Below are positions 41,964-64,000 of a DNA stretch of 64,000 nucleotides, one piece after another. The first letter of the stretch is position 1; every line of letters begins with the position of its first letter. Source of the stretch: Xestospongia bergquistia (Eukaryota > Porifera > Demospongiae > Haplosclerida > Petrosiidae); assembly GCA_963965975.1 (NCBI GenBank), contig OZ014411.1, positions 16,148,446 through 16,212,445 on the forward strand, given 5' to 3'. A program made the position numbers and the translations under genes. The notes below the pieces were generated by a model. It worked only from the letters and a program-made list of their open reading frames with translations. It was not told where the DNA came from and made no database searches.

Positions 41964-44310
41964 CTAATGTTCATAAGGTAATAATAATAGGGCCAATTTG
42001 TGGACTGGTCTCATGTAAATGCTAGTAGACATCTTAATGGTAACAACTCGTACAATGCCATCTTTTCCAGGATGTACTTGTAGAACCTTGGCAAGAGGCC
42101 ACCTTGTACGAGCAAGTTTTTCTCCCTGCAGTACAACTATGTCGCCAACAGACAAATTTCTTGAAGGTCGGTACCATTTAGCAAACTTATTGAGAGTGGG
42201 GAGATATTCTGTAGACCACCTTTACCAAAAAATGTCGAATAAGATTTTGACATAAATGCCAATGACAGAGGAGAGGTATTGAACAATAAGAGAGAGAATG
42301 ATCTAGAAGGGAATCCAGAGACCTACCAATGAGAATATGACCCGTGGTCAACACTTCAAAACTATCCTCATCACAAATTAAGGGAACAAGTGGTCTGTTG
42401 TTAAGACAAGCTTCAATTTGAGTCAATACAGTGGACATTTCCTCAAATGTCAGTTTGACTATGGATACAATGCGTTTTAAAGGATATTTGGTACTCTTCA
42501 CTGCAGCTTCCCAGAAGCCACCAAAATGAGGTGTACATTCAGGGAGAAATTTCCATTCAATATTTTGAGATTTGCAGAATTTTGATATATTTTCTTGAGA
42601 TTTTTGGTGTTCAAAAATCTCACCTAGTTCCTTTAATTCATTTTTTGCTCCAACAAAATCGGTGCCATTGTCACTCCAGACAAGAGTAGGTCTGCCACAT
42701 CTGGCAATAAAACGTCTTAAACTAGCAAGAAATGCTTCAGTAGTCAAATCACTGACCAATTCAATGTGAACGGCTTTGACTGTAAGTGAGACAAAAATAA
42801 GCCTTTACAATGACTGGTTTACGTACATGTCCATGTTTAAGATAGGCAGGACCCGCATAGTCCACACCAACTCTTTCAAAGACTGAATCGGGAGTCACAC
42901 ATTCTAAAGGGAGCTGCCCTGGTAACTGTGGTTTAGGTTAATACGACGACAAGTAACACATCCTCGGGTGATCGAGTGAACTAGTTTCCGACATCCAATG
43001 ATGTGAAACCTCTGACAGAGAGACAAAATGAGGAGTTTTTTTGACCTGCATGAAGCAAACATTGATGTTCTATGTGAACCATCATTTTTGAAACAAAATG
43101 TTTCCCATGAAGAATGACAGGGTGTTGTTGGGAATGATGAAGATTGGAATGTTGCTATCTTCCACCAACTCGGAGGACTTCAGAAAGGGATTCAAAGGTA
43201 AAAGATAACTAGTTTGGGATATAGAACGTTGAGATTTGAGAGCAGTAATTTCTTGTGCAAATGAATTTTCTTGAGACAAAGAAATCCAGTATCTTTCTGC
43301 TAATATCATCTCTTCAACTGCAAGGTGTCCAAATTTCCTTGCATCTTTAAGTTGACAATTGTTAATGAAACAAAGTATCCAGGCAGTGATACATTTCAAG
43401 TAGGTGAAATTGGAATAACGGTTAGGAGATATAACCGGCGTCTTTGAAGGAGTGAGAGTGAGATGACACATTTCTCTTTCTTCGTCAGAGTTAGAAGAGG
43501 AGAATCTCAATTGTTGAGGCCATTGAAATGGAGGAAGTTTGAGCCAAGGAGGTCCTCCCACCATGCTCTACAATCCAACAGTTGTGAGGGAAAAAGTCCT
43601 CGAGATACATGGTCAGCTGGGTTTTCCATACCATGAACATGGTTCCAATGATCTGGTGGAATGTGCTCGATGATAGAAAAGACTCGGTTGTTTACATATA
43701 TCTTGAAGTGCCTCGGATTACCAATCAGCCAGCTGAGGACAATAGTACTGTCTGTCCAAGCATAAATATCATTGAGTGGGAACTGGTACACTTCTTTCAC
43801 ATGATGAAGGAGTTGAGACAGAAGATGAGCTCCGCAGAGCTCAAAACGAGGTATAGTTAATTTCTTGATTGGTGCGACCTTAGATTTTGATATCACAAGA
43901 GCAATATAGACTTGATCAGAAATGTCAACCATATGTAAGTAGATGACACCACAATAGGCGTTTTCAGATATGTCGCAGAAACCATGAAGTTGTGACGGTA
44001 CAATCTGTGTTCCCTTAGGAACATAACATCGAGGTATTCGAACGTCAGACAGGATAGTTAGTTCAGATCTCCATTGCATCTACGTGTCAAATATGTGTTG
44101 AAGTATGGGAGAGTCCCAGTCAACCTTTAGTTCCCAGAGCTGTTGCAAAAGGATCTTGACTTTGACAATGGTGGGAGAAAATCATCCCAATACATCGAAA
44201 GTTTTAGCGATGTCTGATACGAGCATGCGTATGGTCACACCCTCTAAGAATGGTAGTTTTGCAATGGTGATTCTAAGTGATCTAATTGAGGATTCCATTC
44301 GATGCCAAGT
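41964..44310 (-). mobile_element. Decayed BEL/Pao retrotransposon, 3' part of pol
   Basis: Read on the minus strand from 44,310 down, domains come in BEL/Pao order. First is SDIAKTFDVLG-(stop)-FSP (Pao RT-associated region), where TGA replaces a Trp codon. Next is RNase H (LHGFCDISENAY, WTDSTIVLSWL, HGMENPADHVSRG) to 43,507, then a frameshifted segment 43,564-43,082. A zinc-binding GCVTCRRI lies near 42,945. The integrase core at 42,759-42,187 shows VWSDNGTDFVG and FLPECTPHFGGFWE, with D and E catalytic positions. The DUF5641-like end at 42,155-41,964 shows VGDIVVL and WPLAKVLQVHPGKDG. The gag, protease and reverse transcriptase palm are missing. Stops and frameshifts make it inactive. Confidence 0.92.
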
Positions 44311-46371: not shown

Positions 46372-49300
46372 ATGGCAGATTGTGGTAACGGAGGAGATAG
46401 AAGGAAAGGACAAGGACAGGGACGTGGACGTGGACGTGGACGTGGACGTGGACAGACTCCTAGTCAAGTGGCTGGAAAAGCTAGAGGTAGAGGACGAGGA
46501 GGACCTAGCCATTATCATACAAGACAACATGGTTTACATCAAGATGATCAATCAAGATCTTCCTCCCAGCAAAACAGTAGAGGAACAAGAGGTGATGATA
46601 GTGCCAGACAAAGTTCAAGTATTGATAGATCAGCTAGTGAACAGCCATCAAGAAATCAGTCATACCCAAATACACGTTCACAACAGAGAACACTTGAACC
46701 AGTTATACCAATCCCTCCTATAGACACCAGACCAAGTGGGACAAGGAGACAACATATAAGTCAGCCAGTTAGTACCTCTAGTCAAACTATTCCTTTAGAG
46801 ACTGCCACTGCAGGTGCTACTCCTGCTATAACTCTACCACAGTCATCTCCTGTCTCTACTACACTCACTGTACGGGATCCTCCTCCTCGTCCAGGGTTTG
46901 GAACAAAGGGACGTCCTATCCAATTAAGAGCTAACCACTTTAAAATTGATATTCCTCGTGGCAATATATATCACTATGATGTTAATATTCAGCCTGGAAA
47001 ATGTCCTCGTCATATAAATCGTCAAGTTATAAAACAGATTGAAACAAAGCACAAAGATAAGTTAGCAGAATGTAAGTTAGCCTATGATGGTGTAGCAAAT
47101 TTGTATACATCAAAGCCACTTCCATCAGTCAATGGACAAAGTAGAGTAAGTTATTATATTTGTATGTTAAATAATTACTTTTTATCAATTAAATTATAAA
47201 TATATTGAACTAGTCTAGCAGTCTATGAATAGAGAAAGCCATGTAACACATATGAATAATGGAATATTAATAAGTCTGTTTATTGGTCTCTTAATATGTT
47301 CCCAAACTAAAATGAAAAGGATTTCTTCACTTTGATTTGAGACAAAACATGATTTTATAAGTGACTATGATATGACTATGACATGTACAACCTATATTTT
47401 AGTTTTAGTCACTTATATTTTATTATAACAATCAAGTTTGTAATCTTAATTTTCTATAAACATTAAAGACCCATAATAGATATGTCTAATAATTTTTGTT
47501 TATCTCTTAGAGTGAACTAAAAGTAACAATTCAAATTGAGAGGGAGAAGGAAAGAGAGTTTACAGTAAGTATATATAAAGTACTTACAATATATTACTAT
47601 AATATGTTAATGTTACCTCAGCATTACAAACAAGTTATGACATCACATCTACATATATATCAATATTAGGGTAATATGTTTGTACTACATATAATATGAA
47701 GTGTTAGTTATATCATACAAGATATTTTGTTCACAGTGCACTTTCAATTTAATAGGTATCACTTAAACTTGTTGCTACCGTATCACTAGATGTTCTACAT
47801 CAGTTATCATCTATGAAGACAACTACATTAGATCAAACACAATCTGCTATTAATGCAATAGATGTTATATTAAGATGGATACCATCATTGAGGTATTGGA
47901 AAATGCAATATTAGTAAATTAGAAATAAGTTAAAAGTTATATGACAAATGCATATAGTAAAGATTGACAATTGATGAGTTTCCAGAAGACCTTATGTTGT
48001 TAATATTACTTATATAGGAAAGTTTATCCTACCTGCTTGTTTGGTTGTAGTGTGTCAGTGATATTAGTATACTTTCAAATACTGTTAAATATCATACAAG
48101 TATTTTCAAAATTTATTTTCTCACAAACAACAAAATATGTGAAAAACTATTTCACTACAAATGAATGACAGTAAATTAATGACAGTACATTTTGTTTAAT
48201 AGTTGAGTACAGTCGTACAATACTATTATTACCTAGTCTGTAAGGATGAGCATTATATGATTATCATTATATTTTACTACAGGTATACTAGTGTTGGTAG
48301 AAGTTTCTTTACTCAACCTAGAGCTACTGAGTGTACTCCACTTGGTGGTGGGAGAGAAGTATGGTATGGTTATTATCAAAGTGTACGTCCTGCCATGTGG
48401 TCAATGACATTGAATTTAGACTGTAAGTTTATGTTAACTAAACCCTATAAATTATATTGACCATTTCACTAAAGTAGACAAAACATGACATTGTTAGCAA
48501 AATAATATTTGGTTAAAAATTAATATGTTTCAATAAAAGAATATGTACAATTGACGGACATCAATAATCACAATATAACAAAATATATAGCTCGATACAA
48601 TTATAGGATTTCATAAAATGTTATATTAACTAGATATTATTATGTACATGTAAATGATGTATTGTCTATTTTTATAGTGTCAGCTACTGCCTTTTATAAA
48701 GAGCAAAGTGTTTTAGATTTTCTTACTGAAATTGTCAGTGGTGGACGTGGTGGTGGGGGTGGGCGTGGTCGAGAAGGCAGTAGAGGTAGGGATAGATATA
48801 GAGATGGACAAGGTGGAGCTAGAGGAGGAGGATTTGAATCAAATACTCCATCTTCTTTATCAGATTCTGACAGACGACAATTTGCAAAGGAAATTAAAGG
48901 TTTGTGACAACATTATATAATATTCTAACACCCAGTAATAGTCCTATTTATATGTCATGGAAAGTTACCTAACACTCAATATCATTGAGTCATTAGCACT
49001 ATAACAGTTAGGAGGTTAAACTTGTGCATATCCTTTTACCAAATAAAACAAACAAACAAACCTTTCCAGTTTACTATTATTATTTAATGTGTTCACTTGT
49101 TATGTTCTAGGACTAAAGGTAGAAGTAACACATCTTTCCTACCCTCGGAAATATAAAGTTAAAGATGTGACTCGTGAACCAGCTACAAAACTAAGGTATA
49201 GATTTTATATTATAGCTAAAGTATTATATGTCATAGCAGTCATTGAAAAAGACAACTAGTAAATGTGATTTGTAAACCATTTGTACAAGATCATAATTAT

Positions 49301-52300
49301 AAAAGGTTATCCTAAGATTATTTTAGTGGTAGATTGCCAAGTGTGAATACTGGAGAGTTGGGAAAGCTATGTTCTCACTAAAAAGAAGTCTGAGCCTTTG
49401 TCAGTCACGCCCAATTTGCAGCACTCATATTAGCAATAATTAAATTCATAGATTGCAATGTGTATTGGGAGCTGCTTTATAAGTGTTAATTTCATTTGTT
49501 AAGGTCAATAGTTGCATTCAACAATATAATTAAACATGGCCTAAAACAATTTGGACCACCTGGCTCACATAACACAGTGTGTCAGACAGATAAATCCCTA
49601 GTTCATACTAAAGGGTTAAAGTAAAATGTATAGAATTATTCAGAGTAATTCTAACAAACAAGCTAATAATAGTGGTCATTATGACTGATATAGATAGAGT
49701 TACAATTTTACATATAGATTTGTTTGTCTTTATAGTTTTGATTTTGAAGGTAGACAATGCACTGTACAAAATTACTTTAAAGAAATGCACAAGAAACCTC
49801 TCAGTTATCCTAATCTACCTTGTCTTCATATGGATGGTAAAAATCCATCAATATATATCCCACTTGAAGTAAGTTATAATAATGTAATGTGAAATAAATT
49901 GCTTTGCTTTAGTTTTGTAAGATATTAGGTCAGAACTGTACAAGAAAACTCACTGGTGACCAGACTAGTGAAATGATAAAAGCAACAGCTAGGCCAGCTT
50001 ATGAAAGAGAGAGAGAGATCAGGGAAAGGGTATGTTTTGTTTTAATTACACAAAACTGAAAACAATTGTTTGAAGATTATGATGACATCTTATTACTTTA
50101 AATGTGATATAGTAACTATAATTTTGATTGTACAATAACAAAATAAAACCATATTTATATATTTGATATACAGTATACATAGGTAACTAGTTGATATATG
50201 ATTCAAAATAGGACCATGTGGAAAACAAGCCTATAGATAAGCTGTATTAATAATTGTAATTTGACTAGAATTGATAATATTGTTATGTATTACCTCAGGT
50301 TAGAGAGGCTGATTTTGCTAGAGATGAATGTCTTCGTGATTTTGGTATCAAGATACATCGGGATATGATGTCAATTGATGGAAGAGTCCTTGATCCACCA
50401 AAATTAGAATACAGAGACAAGAAAAATGTCACCCCAGATAGAGGACAATGGGATATGAGAGGAAATTTTTTCTTTAAAGGAATTAACATTAAATGTTGGG
50501 GTATTATTGTAATTCCAAATCAAAGATTCTTTAATGAAGATGCAGTTCAGTAAGAGTAACACGATTACTGGAGTCACTTACTAATAGTTATAGAATCAAT
50601 GAAACAAACAATGGCTTGTGTGTAGTTGTTGTTTTATCTCACATGTTTGTCTCAGTTTACTACTTTATAACAGTTTTTAAATGTTTCCATTTAAGCAATA
50701 TCTGACATCACAATTCCATGTAGCTTAATGTCAGAAACTTACCCAAACATTATTGACAATACATTTTTCATATAATTGTAATATACAATTAAATTTTTAA
50801 ATGTTTTTTTAGTACATTTGCTCGTGAACTGTCAAAAGCCAGCAGAGAGAAGGGTATGGAAATGACCAACAGGCCAGCAAAGGTCTATTATATCAGATAT
50901 GATGAAGATTTAGAAACTGTGGTCAGGCTATTTCAGCAAAACATTAGTGATCTTCAACTGTTAGTGGTTATTTTGGATGGTACTCGTGGAATTAGTTACA
51001 GTAAGTAAATTGGTTTTTAACTAACTTAATGCATTTATACAAACATTGACTATAGAGAACCTATGATGAATGATACTTTATATGTTCACAATTAAGATGA
51101 CAATGTTGTGTTTTACAATATTTAACCTAGTAAAATGCTTTTATTACAATGAATCATAACAAATGTATTATAAGACTAACTTTTAATAACTTTCTCTCTC
51201 TTTTGTGACTTTGAATTCGTCTCTTTCTTTCCTCACACACGCACACATACATGTACATACACAATACACACACCCACAGATAAAGTGAAGAGAGTATGTG
51301 ATAATTTAGTTGGTGTATGTACTCAATGTGTTCAGGTCAAAAATGCACAAAAGGCACATCCATCTACTATGAAAAATTTGTGTCTTAAAATTAACTCAAA
51401 ATTAGGAGGCACAAATTCTGTTATTCTTAATGAATTCAAGTAAGATTTAAAGACTTTATCTGCACGATTTATAGCTAAATGTTACCTGTAGGCTGCATGT
51501 TTTTGAAAAACCTATAATGATAATGGGAGCTGATGTCACTCATCCAGCTCCTGGAGATACAAGAAGTCCCTCACTAGCAGCAGTAAGATACATAGTGATA
51601 TTCTTCTTAAGACATCAATCTCTCTCTAGCTTACTGCCAGTTTTGATAGACATGCAATGGAATACAGAGCACAAGTAAAAGTACTCAAACATCGACAGGT
51701 ACTTTATAATTTATTATATATTTGACATACATAACACTAGGTACTGTAGTCATTTATACATTATAAGACACAGACCTAAGCCATTTTAGTATACAGTGAT
51801 CTTATTAAAACATTTATAGTATTTTCTCATTGTTTGATATTTACTATACTGATATTTCCTTTAGGAAGTATTTGAGATAGAACAACTTGCTGAGATGATA
51901 AAAGGCATGTTATTGAAATTCTACTTAAAATATAACAAGCAATATAAACCAGAACGTATTATCTTTTATCGAGATGGTGTCAGTGAAGGTCAATTTAAAA
52001 AGGTACCCACAAAACATCCATTGAACTGACACTAAACTACATTTAAATTAGAAGACAGATTAACTGACAGTATAGGTTACAGTATTTACTTTGTGTGTAT
52101 CTAAAATGTAGACACACAGGTTATTTTTATGTTGTTTCTCCTTGTTTTCCATTGTTCTTTAAAGCAGTTAGTCCTGCATTGTCCTAATTTATAGACAAAT
52201 AACAAAAAATGATTTACTTGAACAGCCAATTTGTAATAACTAATTATAACCATCTAAAGCTGTATTGTAATAAGCTATATTTCCTATTAGGTTATTGAAC

Positions 52301-54173
52301 AAGAGATTGCAGCAGTACAGAAAGCTTGTCAAGACCTAGAGTCAGGCTATCAGCCTGGTATCACATTTTTGGTTGTCCAAAAACGCCACCATACAAGATT
52401 ATTCTGTGCTAACAGAGAAGATCAGGTTACTTCTCAATAATATACTTATGTGTGTTTAGTAGTGACTATAAATGAAGTACTCCTCAAGGTTTATTAATAC
52501 TATTAATTTAACAACCAACAATGACCCTTTTACAAAATATTTCCTTATAATGGAAATACAGTACAAACTAAACTGTCAATGGTTTTTTGTGTTTAATGTT
52601 TTGGCAATTTGTTAAACACATTACTTGCAACAAAATCATTCTGTGTGTATTAATTAAATCATTGCTGATTACAAGCAAGTCACTAACATTAGACATGAGA
52701 ACTCTTACTGTAAATAATAAAAATGAAAATAACAAATTACCTCATGTTACTTAAAAAGACCATGTTAGCACAAACAGACTTAATACACTCAATTATCTAA
52801 TGTATATTGTGTTGCTTGGTATAATAATCAACTTTGTGTCAATAATAGCAGTCACAGGAACTGTCATGATAAATATTCCCAAAAACAAAAGCACATTTGA
52901 CAGACATGTTTAATAACAAAAGAAGTGTAATATCTAAATGGAGTGCTTACTTATGTACATATAATAGTATATCTGTATTCGTATATACTAATATATTTGT
53001 AGTCAAAACAATAATGACAGGATCTGTAATGATATAACCTTTTGTCATTTGTTTAGCATGGCAAGGGAAGTAATGTACCAGCTGGTACTACTGTTGACAC
53101 ACATATCACACATCCTACTGAATTTGATTTCTTCCTATGTTCTCATGCTGGAATCCAGGTATATTAGATATGTATAATGTAGGCCATACAACCACATACA
53201 CTAACACTTAAGATTGAAGATAACATGTGAATAGGTGTTATAATAAACTTTGTTACATAGAATAAATGTTGAAAGTGAAACTACTATTACATATTGTATA
53301 TGTAGAACTAAAGTATCATAGTAGCCATATTTGTTAGCCTTCTAATATTGTCACTATAGTGTTAGTTACAAACTAGCTTCATACCAATGCAACATACATT
53401 AATGTATAAGTAATAAACTGTTAACCCTAACAACATGTTTCCATGGTAATTATCTTATTCATAATATGTCATACATTATAGGGTACTAGTAAGCCTTGTC
53501 ATTATCATGTCTTATGGGATGATAACAACTTCACTGCTGATGATCTTCAAACATTAACTTACCAACTTTGTCATTGTTATGTTCGATGTAATCGTAGTGT
53601 GTCCTATCCAGCACCTACTTACTATTCACATCTCGCTGCTTTTAGAGCAAGATATACTTTACAAGACTGGGAGGAAAGGAAAAGGTAACCAGTTAAATAT
53701 AATTACCATATATGTCTTGTTGTCTGTTGTGTTCATGTTATATTACCATAATTGTAGTGATTTGATTTCACAATTCTAACATTTAGAATATATTGATTAT
53801 TCTAAGCAAACTATTAATATTAGCTAATGATGAACATTGAGTTAACTCTTTATAATTATAGTCACTGAGTAATGTAATGATGGTAAATGTAGCTTTATTT
53901 TATTTTACTATTCACCAACTTCAAATCCATTCTAGTGTACTTCATTTAACAAATCAATATGATCAGTAGCAATATCATAATTTGATTATTAATTTTAAAA
54001 TATAATTATATTTTTGTAGACTTATTATTAGTCATTCTTTTTTATTCAGTGGCAGTAGTGATACTGCTAGTTCTGTTAGCTACTCAAGTGAAGATCTTGT
54101 TAAAGTAATTCCTGAATTACAAAGAGCAATAGAAGTCAATGAACACATAAAAGACACAATGTACTTTGTATGA
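46372..54173 (+). CDS. AGO: Argonaute (AGO clade), probable slicer
   Basis: Eighteen exons join to 3,123 nt (1,040 residues plus stop): 46372-47145, 47511-47564, 47756-47892, 48283-48422, 48678-48899, 49111-49195, 49736-49868, 49913-50029, 50299-50549, 50813-51000, 51280-51439, 51492-51582, 51630-51698, 51865-52002, 52291-52425, 53057-53158, 53482-53684 and 54050-54173. All borders are GT-AG. The N terminus has a GRG tract (residues about 13-27). The N domain is [13 protein letters not shown]1785 is [14 protein letters not shown] is [13 protein letters not shown], and MID is [17 protein letters not shown] carries the DEDH set: GADVTHP, the Glu of HRQEVFE, FYRDGV and CHYHVLW. The ending DTMYFV is AGO-type (vertebrate AGOs end TMYFA). 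It binds small RNAs and cleaves or silences targets. The length exceeds vertebrate AGO2 (about 860) through the N-terminal extension and an Arg-Gly insert at residues about 389-421. The first in-frame ATG was chosen as start. Confidence 0.97.
46417..46458 (+). repeat. GGACGT hexamer repeat encoding Arg-Gly
   Basis: A hexanucleotide run (GGACGT about five times) encodes the GRGRGRGRG tract near the Argonaute N terminus. Such a run can change length by slippage without frameshift. Arg-Gly tracts are substrates for arginine methyltransferases and, when methylated, bind Tudor domains. Confidence 0.93.
48738..48839 (+). other. RG-rich insertion at the start of the Argonaute PAZ region
   Basis: Within exon 48678-48899, after the conserved DFLTEIV and before the conserved [10 protein letters not shown], there are about 33 residues dominated by Gly and Arg ([13 protein letters not shown], then [11 protein letters not shown] and GGARGGGF). 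In animal AGO1-4 this place holds a short linker of mainly polar residues. The frame is kept and both sides align with AGO, so it is a genuine insertion and not an intron retained by mistake. Confidence 0.9.
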
Positions 54174-54840
54174 TGTTCAGAAATATAACTGATACATTTC
54201 ATATTTTATCACAGCTATTATTATTCATTTACCGATTTAAGACATGTCTTTGTGTAGTTACAAATGTTGTATCATATTCATGTTATAAAATGTTGGAATT
54301 TAATGTATTAATGTATAAGATTTTCATTCATAATAAGTTCCAACAGACAAGTCCAGTCAAAATGTATTAATATTATATTTTCTTGTAATAATATTAATTT
54401 TGATGTTTTATATAATTATTATAGATATAGGTACATGTGTATATCTGATAGTTTATAGTTCCTTTCAATATCATCGTCCTATTTAAATTGTTACATGTAC
54501 AAGTATATTTAGATATGATCATCTAAGACATAATTATAGTAAATTGTTAAGGTATCCTGACTCCTTATACATAAAAGCTGGATCATCTAAGACATAATTA
54601 TAGTAAATTGTTAAGGTATCCTGACTCCTTATACATAAAAGTCTGGTAATAAGTCCCGATAATGTGGGTAATAAGTGGTTTCTGCAATGTAAAGGCTTCC
54701 TGTCAGATGACCAACTGTATACACTAAAACCTTATCAGTGTTATCATATAGAATAATAGTAATTAGTAGCAGAAAAGAGTATATGATGATGTTACAAAAA
54801 TTATGATAGAAAATAAGCACCATTAATTATTTATTATGAG
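54174..54840. other. Tail-to-tail intergenic region with a 64-bp tandem duplication
   Basis: This lies between the stop codons of Argonaute (plus) and the AP1AR-like gene (minus), so it contains both 3' UTRs. The sequence 54517-54580 is repeated at 54581-54642 almost exactly (GATCATCTAAGACATAATTA...). No AATAAA is evident on the plus strand shortly after the Argonaute stop. Confidence 0.8.
54830..54835 (-). terminator. Polyadenylation signal AATAAA of the AP1AR-like gene
   Basis: On the minus strand AATAAA starts only five bases after the stop codon (54841-54843), which implies a 3' UTR of a few tens of bases. Confidence 0.6.
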
Positions 54841-55783
54841 TTAGAGCAGGTTAAGATCTATGTCCTTTAAGTTTGTTTCAACACGTTTTGATGAAGATGG
54901 TAAAGATGCTGATTCCCAATAACCAAAGTCTACTTCTTCTTCAGATAAGTCATCATCTGAAGTAATGGAATGTAGTGGATTAGGCAGACTACTACTGCCA
55001 CCAGTATCAGCTGAGTTAGTATTAGAGAGATGCTTTGATTTAACACTCTTTAAAAACTTGTCAAAGTCTTCTTCGTCTTCTTTCAGTTTAGAGTATGTCG
55101 TTGATCTTGATGTCCCTATATCAATATAACAATATCTTATTATTTGGTACATATAAGAACATTTAACTAGAGAGAAAAAGTCGAGTGCTAGAAATTAGCA
55201 TTTACAAGAGCATTACTGATCTAGTATACTGTAAACTGTTAATATTTTGAGTTAGAATTACACTATAATGTGGTTTAGTGTGGTCACTAAACACAATACA
55301 ATAGACACAAAGCTTTAAATAAACAAGGTGCCATTATGAGCCAACTAATTTGACTAAGATAATAATTAGCAACTATGGTCTCTTAATTAAAGGCAATTAA
55401 TTACCAAGAACTTTTGAAGTAGGTAATGGCTGAGAAGTGATAGTTGTCAGTCCACGTTTTGTTTTTTTTGCAGCCTCTTTCTTAGCTGCATAATAAGCTT
55501 CTTCCTCTTGTCTGAGTTGTTCTTCCTCTTGACGAAGCTTCTCATCCCTCTCTCTGTCCAATATTATTTGATCTTCAACTAGTTTATCTAGTCTACCTTC
55601 TCTAACATGTTGTAGTTCAGTTTCTGTCAAAACAGGAACACGTGACGCTTTCTCTTGTTCCTCCAACGTTAGCAAGTTCTCAAACTTTATGGTCTCTATC
55701 TGCGACGTGGTGTAATGTGCTCGACGTGGTTCATCGGCTCTGTTGCCTACACAACGAACAAAACTGTACCAGCAACCTGACAT
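54841..55783 (-). CDS. AP1AR: AP1AR/gadkin-like adaptor-associated protein
   Basis: Two exons, 55405-55783 (ATG at 55781-55783) and 54841-55115, join at GT-AG borders to 654 nt (217 residues plus stop). The N terminus has two Cys and aromatics (SGCWYSFVRC), then IETIKFENLLTLEEQE. A charged helix follows (LVEDQIILDRERDEKLRQEE, then EEAYYAAKKEAAKK). The acidic C-terminal exon has DEEDFDKFLKSVKSK and EEVDFGYWESAS. Vertebrate AP1AR (gadkin, gamma-BAR) has the same order: Cys-rich N terminus, IEFENL, the helix with EEALYAAQREAA, and acidic-phenylalanine motifs near the C terminus. That protein links AP-1 on trans-Golgi/endosomal vesicles to kinesin-1 and Arp2/3. This homologue is shorter than the roughly 300-residue human protein. 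Confidence 0.82.
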
Positions 55784-56023: not shown

Positions 56024-59000
56024 ATGGCAGAGATCAACAAGACAAAGGAGGTTTGTAAAATTTGTTTTAATGCATCCAGTCAGAAATCCACTCCTACACT
56101 TATTCCGGAAAGCAGAGTTGTCACAGACTCAAGTAACAAGAAAAGATGCCCCAACTGTAAACAGAACTGGAGTTCGCAGAAAGTAGCATTCGATACCGAT
56201 ACTAACCGTTGGGTGGCAATTAGACAGCGCCCAACAAAAATGAATCCTAATATTGATTACCAAATGTGCTCTAGTGTTCAAAAACGAACTATATGTAATA
56301 AAGGACCAGGTTTATGTACATTTGCTCATAGTCGCATTGAATTAATCATGTGGAGCCAAGAGAGATGGAGAGAACCACGACCCCTACCCACATTGGGTGG
56401 TGCCAACCAGTTCACACTGTGTAAACATGTGTTAACCACAGGGAATTGTCCATACGGCCAACGATGTTCCTTTGCACACAGTGAAGAGGAGCTAGATCAT
56501 TGGGTTAAAAGTATAACCGGTACCAAAACTTCTAGTTTCCCTGATGGGAATGTTCCAGACTTTTATTGTTCAGCATGTGATGTTTCATGTACTGGACAGC
56601 GACAGTATGAGGAGCATTTAAGTGGTGGACGTCATCGTCAGGTGGTGTCCTCTCAACAACAAGCCATGGCTAAGGACCAACATTATGGTAGTCATTATAC
56701 ACCCACTATGCCACCTGGTAAAGCTGAAGGGTCAGGTCGTATTCGACCACGTCCTAATCGTCTACCAGTACAAGGATTTAAAATGTGTTTTAGTGTGCAG
56801 CATCATAGAAGATGTTACTATGGCAACAAATGTACATTTGCACACTCACAGGCTGAGCTAGACAAATGGAATAGTGAAAGAATGTCATTGAGGTAAGCCA
56901 ATGTTTATTATTATTATACAATACCCAGTTAATACCACTATAACAATGGCTATGGTAACTGATATCATTGCTCAATCAATTTATAATAGTACGTGTCATC
57001 CTGTTTTATTCTGTAATAAGTGAGTATTCAAATAGTAATATTCTTAGTCAATGATTACATAGTCTATCTCTTTGGGGTTGATTGAGCAATCAATATATTA
57101 ATATTCCCCATAATTATATACTTCTTAAGATTAAGTTCCTAGTTCACAAACAGATCATTTTAACAACACAGACTGGGAATTGTGATAATCAGTTTTGTCA
57201 TACAATTATGTCATTACTAGACAGTAGACACAATACTATTACTTGAAATGTCATTAATGTTTCTATATTAATGTATTAATCTCAAGTACTTTCTTCTAAA
57301 GGCAAGCTAGATTTGCAGCTGGTCCTGTTAAAATAACACCAGCTAAACCAGTACATGAACAGCCAACACAATCTGGATTAGATGACTTTGAAGCAGACAG
57401 TCACACTACATCATCATCACTACCGATGGAAGCAGCATCAGGTGAACCAGAAGACTTTGCTCAACAACTTAGAACTACTGTGATGTTGGATTATCAGGAA
57501 AAGGATGATGATAAAGATCTTAAAGGATTAGAGGTAGTTAACAAGTCTTGAACACAGTGACTTATTATGACATACTTAATAAGTACTTAATCTTAAACAA
57601 TAGTAAAATTAGTTGATCTGTCATATGTACATTGTACTGGCTTCATAGTATTTACAAAACAGGCATTAAAAGGATTGTCTTAGAACTAAAACTGATACCA
57701 CATTATAGATTCACAAATAATTCACACCTTCAACTTGTAACATATAGTAACTAAACTATTTTCACAATGTCCATGTATTATGACTTGTTCTGTTTGTCTT
57801 TGAATGTTGTTTTGTCTTGGGTATTTTATGACAGGTAATCTATTGTGACCTCATACTCCTACTTACAGTATACATGTTTTTTTATTAGCAATGTCAATGA
57901 AATGGCCAACACAAATTTTAGCATAGACTAGAATAGTCACTAAGATTTGTATTGTGTATTGTCCTGTGCTTTCCAATGTATGTATGTCTTGAGTTGAGTA
58001 TAATGTTGTTAGTTAATGTTATTTTCATGTACTTTGTCTTCTAGTGTCTTTTCTTTCAATATAGAAAACTCTTCAAAATGTAACTATTACTGAGGAGACT
58101 GGTCAAAATGAAACTCAGACTGTACTAGATAATGGTCCTAATATTTCGTGGATATTTCAAGTCTCATCAAATGTATGATATTAATGACAACAACAGTGGT
58201 ATATATATATAATGCTCTTTTCCCTTTAATAGATTGTTAGAACACTACATTCAGTAGTTTTATTTGATGTGTTATCCCCTGACTTTACTATTGATAGTAT
58301 GGAACTTGTTAAATATAATGGACAGAGGACATCATTATTACCATCTGCTAGAGCTAGTCAAGGGGAAGGAATTCAAGTCTCTCAAGTTATTAATCCTCCA
58401 GATAAAATAGTTATTAAGGTACTATATCTTCTTTAACTTCACTTGTGTCTACTCTTATCACAATAATACATCATCATTCTATTGATGTTAATTCTAGATT
58501 TAAATGATGTGTCAAACATATTCAGTTTGTTACTATTGTAATAATGTAATACTTTATTGTGTAACAAGATTATTGTTATCAAGATAGAATGTCAAGATTA
58601 TATTTTAATATACCTAAGATTGGTTTGAAAATAGCAGTATTGTGGCACAGTTGAGCACAGAAGAGCTATGGTAATGCTTTATAAGGTGATAGTCATGTTG
58701 CTTGTGGTGATACAGTGTTCATTGGCAGTCCAAAAATGTGGTTTATTCCATTGTCATCTTTGAAAGTATTGTGCAATATTATGATATAGCAAATATTTCT
58801 AGTTGTCATTAGTATTGTTTGTTTTATTACACAAACACTGGTACATGTACATGTACATTTTGTGTAACTAAATCATTCCATTTTCATAATACATATATAC
58901 CCATGTACATGTACAGCAATGAGACACCTATATTCATAATACATATATACCCATATACATGTACAGCAGTGAGACACCTATATTCATAATATATATATAT

Positions 59001-62000
59001 ATATATCCATGATTGATAAGGAGTATCTGACAATTTATGTAAATTAATATAGAGTGTCTTATTACTGTACATGTACATGGATATAGTTTATTGTGTTTCC
59101 TATTTCTCTCTATACACAGATAGGACTAAAACCACGTACTGGATTATTAGGACAGATTGTACTATTTGATTTTGGATCATTTTACATGTTACGTTGTCTT
59201 AGTATACATGTAATTAATGAACAAGATAGAAGAACTTTAACCTCAACACAAAAGAAAGTTAGAAGAAGACCTGAAAAAATGTAAGTAGTTTTCACATCAT
59301 ATATACGTATTATCTAGCTAGTACATATGAAATTCACTTGACTATATATAATTGAATTACTGAAATATTAATATAACTTTAAATTCATATCTCTATAGAG
59401 ATTTGTTTTGGGATCAACATTATGAAGTCATCCCTTGGACCAAAGATGATGATGACATGTTGCTGGATGAGTATTCATTACCAGAGGCAGTGGAAAACCT
59501 CATTGATGCTGGTAAATACAAGAATGTAGAACAGAAAGTTAAAAAGGTGAGACTGAAAGCAATATTTGATAGTACACTTATGTCATAGAAAATGAATAAT
59601 TAGTCCAGTTATCATAATAGAATATTCATTGTAGCTGTGTCTCTCCCCTTCTCCATAAATCATGCTGGTACATTACACATGTATATTACACTGGTACCAG
59701 CTGGTACATTACACATGTATATTATGGCTTCTTGAAATATTGAAATAAGGTCTACAATTTTTATCTTTCTATAATAATTTTAAAATTTTGTTTGTTGAGC
59801 AGATAAAATTGACTATAAAATCTACTCTCACCAACAATAAGACAAAACTCTTGCAATTCCACCTGTGTTGTTATCACTGCTATTGACACATGTAACAGTG
59901 ATATTGAGGCTATATATTAACATTTGTTTTCATATTATGTACACAGCCTACTTACGGGAGAAGAATGCATAATCTTTTATATCTTGAAGAATATCAACAA
60001 CGAAAGGGCTTCAGCAGGTACATATGAACTTTTTATAAAACAATAACATAACAACTATTGTTATGACCCTTTATTAGATACATAATAACATGTAATTATG
60101 TTGCATTGTAAATGTAGTACAAGTTTGTTGTTTAGAAATGTTATAGTTCCTACAACACCTTTCAAAGATAGGTGACAAACAGTAGTTTTTAAGAGTGATT
60201 TATAGACATTGATTACATGTAGATTGAGTCTCTCCTCTTGTTGCCTACATTTATCACATTACTTATCAATCTTGTTTAAATTCCAATTATCAGTTTCTTA
60301 TAAATCTAACAATAAAACCTTTTAAATTTCTTACTTCTACATTGTGTTACTTACCTGATCAGTCATAACTTTTCTTTCACTGTTTGGTATTATTTTGATA
60401 TCAAACTTTGATGAGTGCAGTTTAAAAATAAAAATTTCAGACAAAGTATTAGTGGCATAGACTGTGTATATTTTGAAATGGAGGAACAAATGTTTAGAAG
60501 AGGTTGATAAGAAAATGTCATATATATTTACATCTTGTCTTTGTTACTATCAGTTTATCAACATTGTATGTCTTGTTATTATTAATAACTTTATCTCTAT
60601 TAGATATGATCTTTATGATGTGGATATTGATGTTAAAGATCGTCTTGAAACTGAAACTGAATGGATTAATAATCCTCACTATAGTTTTGTTACAATTGAA
60701 ATGGATGAAATATTATTTGAAGGTGGACGGTCTATAAGGTGTGTTGTTGAAATCTTATATATTTCATACATTGTATCTATGTTATTACACATATAAGACT
60801 GTGGAATCTATAATATGCATTGTACCCACACATATTATACTGTGACATCTATAATATACATTGTACCCACACATATTATACTGTGACATCTATAATATAT
60901 ATGGTTCTCTGTTGCTGTTACTAAGGACATTAGTTATAACATTGTTGTTATTTGCTTGTAGAATACTAATGTCAACAAACTTTTATAGCAATATTATGTA
61001 TAACTAAAATTGTACTTTGATATATTATAATTATAGGAGCGCATTATATTATTATATTATATTTTCTTTCTATATTAGGCCTACTGATTTAGCTCTCCTG
61101 TTGCCTAGCAACCAGAGGATGGCTTATGAGTGTGTTGTACATGCTGTGCAACGTGATTCTGTTATCTTAAAACTAACTAAGGAAGCTCATAGTGCTTGGT
61201 AAGTAAAATACACTGGACATTGTGTGACTTATTACATATGCATTATAGTTTGTCAAGTCGTAATCGATGTTCTATAAGGTTCTCTCCTTCAAGAACTCCT
61301 ATGAGAACTATGCATCAGGTACATGTGTATGTTAGATTATATAGTAACTTATATATGAGACATACATTGTTATCATTTTAATATGTACTAATATTTTATC
61401 CGTTACATTCAGGCTGTTGATAGTGTAGACTTAGACGTTATATTTCCTGATGAGCAACAAGACCTTCCTATTCCAAATTCTAACAGTATATCTCGTTGTC
61501 TGAATGAACTGGAGGGATTAGTTCTCAATAATCAACAAAAGAATGCTGTACGGAGTGTTATTGAGCCACTCTATCAAGAGGTGAGGCAGGAAAAATCAAT
61601 TGATATCTTTGTTTTAAATATGTACATGTAATTTATGTACATATGTAGATGTAATCACACACCATGTGTCACATAGTTAATAATTGATAGAAACACCATC
61701 CTTTCCCATATACTTAGAAATGTTCAAGTGATATTTGATAAGGTGTACATAACATGTTGACTTGGCTTAACATTATTAGCCCTTGTACTTACCATAGACT
61801 TGTACATTGTGTATCTATTCACTCTCTGATCACTTTTTACAATTCATTATTAAATCTTTGGTTGATATTTCAGTTTATATGTTATTAATTTGTACAGATG
61901 CCTACTCTAATTCTTGGACCATTTGGTTGTGGTAAAACTAGAACTGTATTTGAATGTGTTACTTTATTAACACTATATGTACCTGATGTACATATATTGA

Positions 62001-64000
62001 TCTGTACACACACTAATGCTGCTGCTGATATTTATGTAGAAGCTATTCACAATGAATGGATAAGTAAGTATATAATATAATCTGTGTATTGTAGAATGTG
62101 ATGTATTTATTGTTTATATAGAACGTACCAATAGGAGACCTAACATGTATAGACAGATCTATAAAGAAAGGAGAGTCAACACTGTCTCTTCAATTGTACG
62201 TGATTACTGCAAGTAAGTCCTAACTAATTAGGCACAAGTTGATTGGTATTACTTATCAATACTGTATATATTGTATTTATATCTACTACATGTACTTTTA
62301 AATGTATCTTTCTTGTATTTCTCTAGTATTGTTGATGGTTCTTTTAATGATTTAAGACCTTCTGAAGTTATGTCAAAATCTATTGTTGTTACTACCACAA
62401 TGACATCTAGGTCATTGTGGTTAAATGGTATTGAAAAAGGATTCTTTACATATATATTTATTGATGAGGCTGCCCAGGTAAAGAGAATATAATCAATATT
62501 TCCTGTATGTTATATCATTATAATAGGTTTTTGAAGCAGAACTCCTCATCCCACTTTGTTTAGCTGGTAAAAATACTAAAATTGTATTAGCAGGAGACAC
62601 GATGCAAGTGAGTTCTATTGGCTAAGATTATTTGTCACCTATGAAATGCTTAGTTTTTCCATTATAACTACATAGATATTATAGATGTGTGATTTGTGAT
62701 TGTTTTACATGTTAAAATATAAAATTTGGACACTTAAGATTATTAAATATATAGTATGAGGTATAGTGAGTATTGACATATTTGTATTTTTATATATAGA
62801 TGGACCCTCCAGTATCCTCACCTATAGCCAAACGATATGGTCTACATGTATCATTATTAGAGAGACTTTATGATGATGACTTATATAAGTCAGGTAAAGG
62901 ACTTCATTGTAGATCACATTTAACTGAAAACCACAGATCACATGAAAAGGTACAAAATGATCAGCTTAATTCACTAAACACTACATTTGTAATGATTTTA
63001 TAAAGTACATATTGTCTTTACAAAATTACTGATATCGTAGCAGACTGTTTTAAATTTCTTCATTGTATCTTATAGATCCTCCACTTACCATCTAAATTAT
63101 TTTATGAAGATAAATTGATAGCTAAAGCTCAATTTCCTCCTGATGGTCCTAAACACATACCAGCATTACAGTTTGTAGGTGTGGATGGTCAAGAAAGACA
63201 AGATGAAAGCTCTCCTTCATATTCAAATAATGATGAAGTTTTTAAAATTGCTGAAGAGGTGAGTTACGTATGATTTCCTCCGTATAGCCACGATGAGGTG
63301 TCATTATGAATATATCTGTGCCTTTGAGGTTGTCAAAGGCTTGATTTAATATTGTGACACATGTGGATATTGAAAGGTTATTAATTCTTAGTTCATTTTT
63401 ATAGTTTTTTGCTGCACTCTCATTCCAATCAGTTTTAAATATATATGTTTGTACAGGTGACTCGTCTACATAATGATGGGCGTGGCCTTCAACAAAGAGA
63501 TATATGTGTACTGTCATATTATCGGATGCAGACGCAAATTATTAGGAGTCATTTGAGATCTAAAAGACTTGGACAAGTATGAGCTATTGGTATTTTGATA
63601 TAGCAGCCACAATTATAATATATTGATTACTTGCAGTGCTATCGAAGTAATATCTTGTTATTTATATTAGCAAGCAAAGTGCATTTTATTGGATATCACT
63701 TACCTATAAATGGTAGAATGTTTAATTAATTTAATATAATGTGCCTTCTTGTAGTAGCTCTAGTTTTATCAAAAGTTTCCTGATATCACTTTTTAAGTTT
63801 ACACACAGAAACTAGAAAGTTTACTTGTAATGATAATATAAGTTAATTTTTGGAACAACTATGAGTCTGTGACAATAAAATAAACAAAGTAATACTATGG
63901 ACATTAATCTTCACAAATTGTAACATTCACAAAATTAAACTACTGCGATAATTATCTGATTACAGTATGCTACATTGTTATAGGTCCAAGCTCATAATAT
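56024..64000 (+). CDS. HELZ2: HELZ2-like zinc-finger SF1 RNA helicase (partial, runs off right edge)
   Basis: Nineteen exons are visible: 56024-56892, 57302-57533, 58065-58172, 58233-58418, 59120-59280, 59399-59546, 59947-60017, 60604-60738, 61079-61198, 61249-61318, 61413-61580, 61898-62063, 62122-62212, 62327-62477, 62527-62607, 62800-62949, 63076-63258, 63457-63576 and 63984 onward. The frame stays open for about 1,075 residues. Exon 1 has CxxC pairs (CKICF, CPNC), three CCCH fingers (each ending TFAHS or SFAHS) and a U1-type C2H2 finger (FYCSACDVSC...HLSGGRH). The helicase has LILGPFGCGKT (motif I), ILICTHTNAAAD (Ia), FIDEAAQ (II), VLAGDTMQMDPP (III) and LTENHRSHE (IV). ICTHTNAAAD and the motif around RRVNTVSSIVRDYC are typical of HELZ/HELZ2. 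Members act on mRNA in decay or transcription control. HELZ2 has a second helicase and an RNB domain, which would lie outside the window. Confidence 0.9.
57534..58064. other. HELZ2-like intron 2
   Basis: AT-rich intron with no repeat or nested gene seen. Confidence 0.7.
58883..58990. repeat. 50-bp tandem repeat in intron 4 of the HELZ2-like gene
   Basis: A unit beginning TTCATAATACATATATACCC and ending GAGACACCTA occurs twice and starts a third time at 58,981, where it runs into a TA tract. It lies in the 0.7-kb intron 58419-59119. Confidence 0.9.
60018..60603. other. HELZ2-like intron 7
   Basis: Intron of about 0.6 kb, AT-rich, without a recognised element. An open frame overlapping its right part is read-through from the next exon. 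Confidence 0.65.
60799..60900. repeat. 41-bp tandem repeat in intron 8 of the HELZ2-like gene
   Basis: The unit CTGTGACATCTATAATATAC + ATTGTACCCACACATATTATA occurs about 2.5 times, at 60,799, 60,840 and 60,881. Confidence 0.9.

Follow-up and report, generated by a model that had tools for sequence, protein, structure and literature searches.

An AGO-clade Argonaute gene of the sponge Xestospongia bergquistia, called AGO_A here, codes for an RG-rich tract inside the PAZ domain, in the loop between its first two helices, as well as RG tracts at the N terminus. The whole gene lies in the window, ie the 64,000-nucleotide stretch of DNA that was analysed. The features on which the description rests are as follows.

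46372..54173, + strand: AGO_A gene, coding sequence from ATG to TGA, 18 exons in a GT-AG chain with a single open frame, 1040 aa.
46405..46509, + strand: two RG tracts near the N terminus (aa 12-28 and 33-46); part of the sequence, 46420-46453, is a GGACGT repeat.
48678..48899, + strand: exon 5 (consensus borders), holding the end of L1, the first PAZ helix, the RG tract and the second PAZ helix.
48737..48838, + strand: RG-rich tract of 34 codons, aa 389-422, exon 5 being in frame with the other 17 exons.
49111..49868, + strand: exons 6 and 7, the remainder of PAZ.

The six Argonaute domains occur in order, all above the Pfam curated cut-offs: ArgoN (aa 181-315), ArgoL1 (325-376), PAZ (434-536), ArgoL2 (546-592), ArgoMid (599-678) and Piwi (688-991). 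The top PDB match of the protein is human AGO2 (4ola, E 1.2e-265, 887 bits), while the best PIWI-clade chain among the matches listed is 9s0z (Piwi-like protein 1) at 165 bits, and AGO_A is assigned to the AGO clade, nearer to AGO than to PIWI proteins. All four motifs of the slicer tetrad D-E-D-H were found, at aa 766 (GADVTHP), 805 (HRQE), 842 and 977 (PTYYSH), and with these intact the protein looks slicer-competent. Domain order and slicer motifs are common to AGO_A and human AGO1-4. A His/Tyr/Phe/Tyr/His set in exons 6-7 is identical, in alignment, to its human AGO2 counterparts, His271, Tyr277, Phe294, Tyr311 and His316, which form the guide 3'-end pocket of the human protein.

Several other elements surround the gene in the window. 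Upstream, at 42187-44079 on the minus strand, are the remains of a Pao-type retrotransposon, with a Peptidase_A17 match and, by eye, an integrase-like frame. Just past AGO_A, at 54519-54645, two near-identical copies of about 60 bases were seen by eye to lie head to tail. The start of a gene for a charged, coiled-coil-like protein is found at 55397-55783 on the minus strand. The adjacent gene at 56024-64000 on the plus strand opens with CCCH and C2H2 zinc fingers, and its later exons, judged by eye from their motifs, presumably encode an SF1 RNA helicase; helicases of this type are sometimes tied to RNA silencing.

The sequence-only reading had put a second RG tract at 48738..48839, within a base of the position found, and had assigned it to the L1/PAZ linker. 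The position was right and the assignment was not. The ArgoL1 match stops at aa 376, and the first PAZ profile position to be matched is 17, at aa 434, past the tract; in a paralogue from the same genome, L011, it is position 13, where the equivalent loop ends. From the end of ArgoL1 and these two PAZ starts, the tract is placed within the first dozen or so PAZ positions, close to the N-terminal boundary of that domain and between helices 1 and 2, rather than in the L1 linker. Alignment with human AGO2 covers aa 147-388 and 427-1039 of AGO_A; human AGO2 is aligned to residue 238 and resumes at 248, AGO_A to 388 and resumes at 427, so that the loop is 9 residues long in the human protein and 38 in AGO_A. 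Ser253 of human AGO2, a phosphorylation site, adjoins this loop.

Residues 389-426 include 8 Arg and 16 Gly, with only 4 RG dipeptides in the tract. Within residues 151-1040 of AGO_A there is a 32-residue stretch with 24 Arg or Gly, a count reached in none of 2000 shuffles (maximum 15). The published definition of a GR-rich stretch, at least 50% G/A and at least 30% R across 8-100 aa according to the accessible part of its source (PMC6668577), picks out three stretches of AGO_A, aa 12-28, 33-46 and 389-409; the first two lie upstream of the N domain and the third, in PAZ, does not. A structure model of exon 5 alone gave a helix at residues 2-19, coil at 20-61 and a helix at 62-72, and was least confident over the tract. 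The input was four sequences (AGO_A and three paralogue exons) and the model as a whole is of low confidence (mean pLDDT 57.5, pTM 0.23). The tract is probably a disordered loop, with which the exon model is weakly consistent, and it would be expected to be disordered in the full protein also.

The genome (146 Mb, 21 contigs) was searched for related genes, only the best candidates being scored, and the decayed copy of AGO_A described below is absent from that scoring. There are at least four AGO-type genes: AGO_A, L009, L010 and L011. L011, on C10, is the nearest to human AGO2 of the AGO-type genes compared (1301 bits), and AGO_A, on sequence, is further diverged from human AGO2 than L011 is. 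L009 and L010 are a divergent AGO pair, about 47 kb apart at approximately 16.08 and 16.13 Mb of C1, upstream of AGO_A on the same contig, and are 89% identical across the core. In the core, L011 is 53% identical to AGO_A, and L009 and L010 are 42-43% identical to it; these figures come from automatic spliced alignments in which the L009 and L010 exons past exon 5 are doubtful. Two more loci, on C7 and C9, appear PIWI-like, judging by their PAZ reading frames. The exon-5 peptide is 73 aa long in AGO_A and 43, 40 and 40 aa in the three paralogues, and there is no RG tract in the exon-5 peptides of L009, L010 or L011. Among the four AGO-type genes compared the PAZ tract is thus restricted to AGO_A. 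An N-terminal RG stretch is present in L009 and none was found in L011 under its spliced model; L010 was compared without its first exon. The proposal of a second RG tract in a complete AGO-clade gene is borne out, the corresponding loop being short in human AGO1-4 and in all three paralogues.

The gene set may fit a pattern described for sponges and cnidarians, of one conserved and one fast-evolving AGO class (PMC5569025, as far as the accessible text goes).

A search with the tract region gave a second match at C1:27431545-27431769 on the minus strand, on the same chromosome as AGO_A. It belongs to a decayed duplicate, and this and the repeat structure of the tract bear on its origin.

G000:C1:27425100-27434900, - strand: L019, decayed partial duplicate of AGO_A, introns retained.
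48738..48769, + strand: weak tandem repeat GTGGTGGAC, 3.6 copies, 73% matches (TRF), in the first third of the tract.

L019 covers AGO_A exons 4-6 and 11-16 (11 and 16 in part) and has five in-frame stops together with frame-breaking indels. Its introns are 84.0% identical to those of AGO_A (1952/2324, 372 differences) and exon 5 without the tract is 90.2% identical (111/123). In the tract the figure is 77.4% (65/84, 19 differences), and a further 15 bases are absent from L019; the second half (YRDGQG.A.GGGFE) is recognisable in the duplicate and the first half is not. Since L019 holds a shorter but related tract, the RG insertion is older than the duplication. The 15 missing bases are a multiple of three, which suggests, on little data, a length change in a coding context. 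Outside the tract, differences between AGO_A and L019 by codon position number 41/296, 16/298 and 26/295 (first, second and third), so that they are commonest at the first position, unlike the usual third-position pattern.

It is quite possible that the tract is a neutral expansion, tolerated because the loop is surface-exposed and accepts insertions, arising in slippage-prone, GC-rich coding DNA and having no specific function. Weak repetition of GTGGTGGAC/GTGGGG units over the tract's first third points in that direction, as does the fact that a short loop suffices in three paralogues. So does the comparison with L019: the tract has diverged from the duplicate by no less than the introns have, and hence gives no sign of constraint at the level of residues, in a comparison of two sequences which is unpolarised as to the lineage that changed. 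Against this, the tract is more than a fresh repeat, because its codons are mixed (for Gly, GGT 7, GGA 6, GGG 2 and GGC 1; for Arg, AGA 4, CGT 2, CGA 1 and AGG 1); a related tract was already present before the duplication; and AGO_A has RG tracts at its N terminus too, so that the composition recurs in the protein. The origin of the tract is most simply explained by slippage in its first third and later substitutions.

That the amino acids are a by-product of an RNA-level element, a G-rich coding strand giving a G-quadruplex in the mRNA, is scarcely credible. There are several two-tetrad G4-like patterns in the tract, for example at 48740; however, the three-tetrad pattern is absent from it, RG and GG codons are G-rich in any case, and the first half of the tract differs in L019.

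The tract would disappear from the protein, in whole or in part, if exon 5 contained a cryptic intron, and cDNA evidence of such an intron had been named as grounds for abandoning the sequence-only reading. A splice-site matrix was built from the 17 introns of AGO_A itself and used for a full scan of exon 5. The real introns, each left out in turn, score 5.0-17.1 bits. Pairs that start before 48761 and take out nearly the whole tract reach at most 4.1 bits. For partial removal one pair stands out.

48786..48863, + strand: candidate cryptic intron of 78 nt, in frame, the loss of which would drop aa 405-430; 8.9 bits, 41% GC; not favoured.

The score of this pair (donor 5.5, acceptor 3.4) exceeds that of 4 of the 17 real introns, and genuine introns of the gene are as short as 44 nt. 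With it removed, the exon-5 peptide would shrink to 47 aa, near the length of the paralogue peptides, with only the first half of the tract kept and joined to DSDRRQ, ie a shorter RG stretch in a near-normal loop in some or all transcripts. On the other hand the score is not specific, because three of the other 17 exons (1, 10 and 11) contain 18 pairs of 8.9 bits or more between them; the GC content of the candidate exceeds that of the real introns (22-32%); its removal loses a Leu which all four paralogues share and which belongs to an L-x-D-S motif found also in human AGO2; and the frame of exon 5 is open throughout. Partial splicing of the tract is therefore unlikely but possible, and we infer that the tract is retained in the mature mRNA. 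The acceptor of this pair, a fair acceptor-like AG at 48863, would also keep the frame if joined to the exon-4 donor, but the protein would then lack both the RG tract and the first helix of PAZ.

RG-rich tracts as such are known in Argonautes. In the accessible part of a survey of 7026 AGO sequences, GR-rich AGOs come mostly from fungi, chromalveolates and plants and have the tract ahead of the N domain, nematodes being the only animals for which a long one is given; Chlamydomonas AGO2/3 have a further GR-rich stretch of about 20 aa within the N domain (PMC6668577). Toxoplasma AGO requires its N-terminal RGG region for association with polysomes and Tudor-SN but not for small-RNA loading (PMC2877743, accessible portion), and in Arabidopsis AGO2, according to the sections at hand of PMC6381116, PRMT5 methylates the RG repeats and Tudor-SN proteins bind them. 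Entamoeba histolytica EhAgo2-2 has a C-terminal Arg-rich repeat region and an RGG/RG stretch, the D/R-rich repeats serving as a nuclear localisation signal (PMC6796981, from the text available). To the extent that these partial sources allow, the tracts of Chlamydomonas AGO2/3, Toxoplasma AGO and Arabidopsis AGO1/AGO2 resemble those of AGO_A, including its N-terminal ones. The tracts of protist, algal, fungal and plant AGOs are mostly upstream of the N domain, whereas the additional one of AGO_A is in PAZ; the RGG/RG stretch of EhAgo2-2 is, like that of AGO_A, outside the N terminus, but it is C-terminal and follows PIWI. The 'only' in the earlier statement that RG motifs of AGOs usually lie only at the N terminus was too strong: most do, but Chlamydomonas AGO2/3 have an internal stretch and EhAgo2-2 a C-terminal one.

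Paralogue-specific insertions are also found in human AGO3 and AGO4; they are not known to be RG-rich. In the part of PMC9262622 that is accessible they are named 3SI, which lies elsewhere, in L1 (L152-N159), and 4SI. The 9-residue loop of human AGO2 is unlike that of AGO_A. In PIWI proteins the disordered N-terminal RG arginines are read by Tudor proteins, and in Drosophila Aub guide loading triggers their methylation (PMC8249470, accessible text); AGO_A differs in belonging to the AGO clade and in having the tract in PAZ.

The literature searched, with partial coverage, contained no RG tract in the PAZ domain of any AGO. Relatives of the exon-5 peptide were sought among prokaryote genome contigs (585 pattern matches) and viral contigs (272 pattern matches), and none was confirmed in either set; as those collections are of prokaryotes and viruses, the lack of relatives means little. 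The RG tract in the PAZ helix loop is, on present sequence, a variant of the known AGO RG tracts, from one gene of one genome.

The account which we tentatively prefer, and hold at a little short of an even chance, is that in-frame slippage, together with small indels, enlarged the flexible loop that joins PAZ helices 1 and 2 and turned it into a disordered RG tract. This tract would act jointly with its N-terminal counterpart as a further, positively charged site of low specificity. The tract might contact RNA or the RNP environment, and it might be a substrate of an arginine methyltransferase, so tuning localisation or partner binding and thereby affecting silencing; it would probably lie outside guide-end recognition proper. 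An accessory site for RNA binding or methylation is favoured only slightly over an absence of function, by analogy with published tracts that are situated elsewhere in the protein.

Candidate components for methylation and its reading are encoded in the genome. PRMT5 exons gave 7 matches, at three places on C15, and there are 34 TUDOR matches in the genome. Two long open frames are rich in the latter, one of 2808 aa with 11 TUDOR matches at G000:C6:1918819-1926798 (minus strand) and one of 1758 aa with 6 at C5:5868199-5872074 (plus strand); being very long, they indicate stretches of these TUDOR genes without introns. For a putative Tudor-SN gene, the SNase search yielded just one matching exon; it lies on C13, and none of the TUDOR matches listed is on that contig. 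It is conceivable, if decidedly improbable, that the tract is a methylation switch which signals, or itself controls, the state of the 3' end of the guide. Movement of PAZ on guide loading and release would then expose the tract to PRMT5 and Tudor readers or hide it from them, and the AGO clade would have a loading-dependent coupling to Tudor proteins like that at PIWI N termini.

The gene suggests that the loop between helix 1 and helix 2 of PAZ, in an AGO that looks catalytically intact, can accommodate about 30 extra, disordered residues rich in Arg and Gly, and that an animal-type AGO may have RG tracts away from the N terminus. Were the tract functional, the mobile PAZ domain, in which the 3' end of the guide is bound, would bear a site for arginine methylation or RNA binding, with the paralogues of the same genome as natural controls. 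If it is not, it would be a clear case of growth by slippage in an insertion-tolerant loop.
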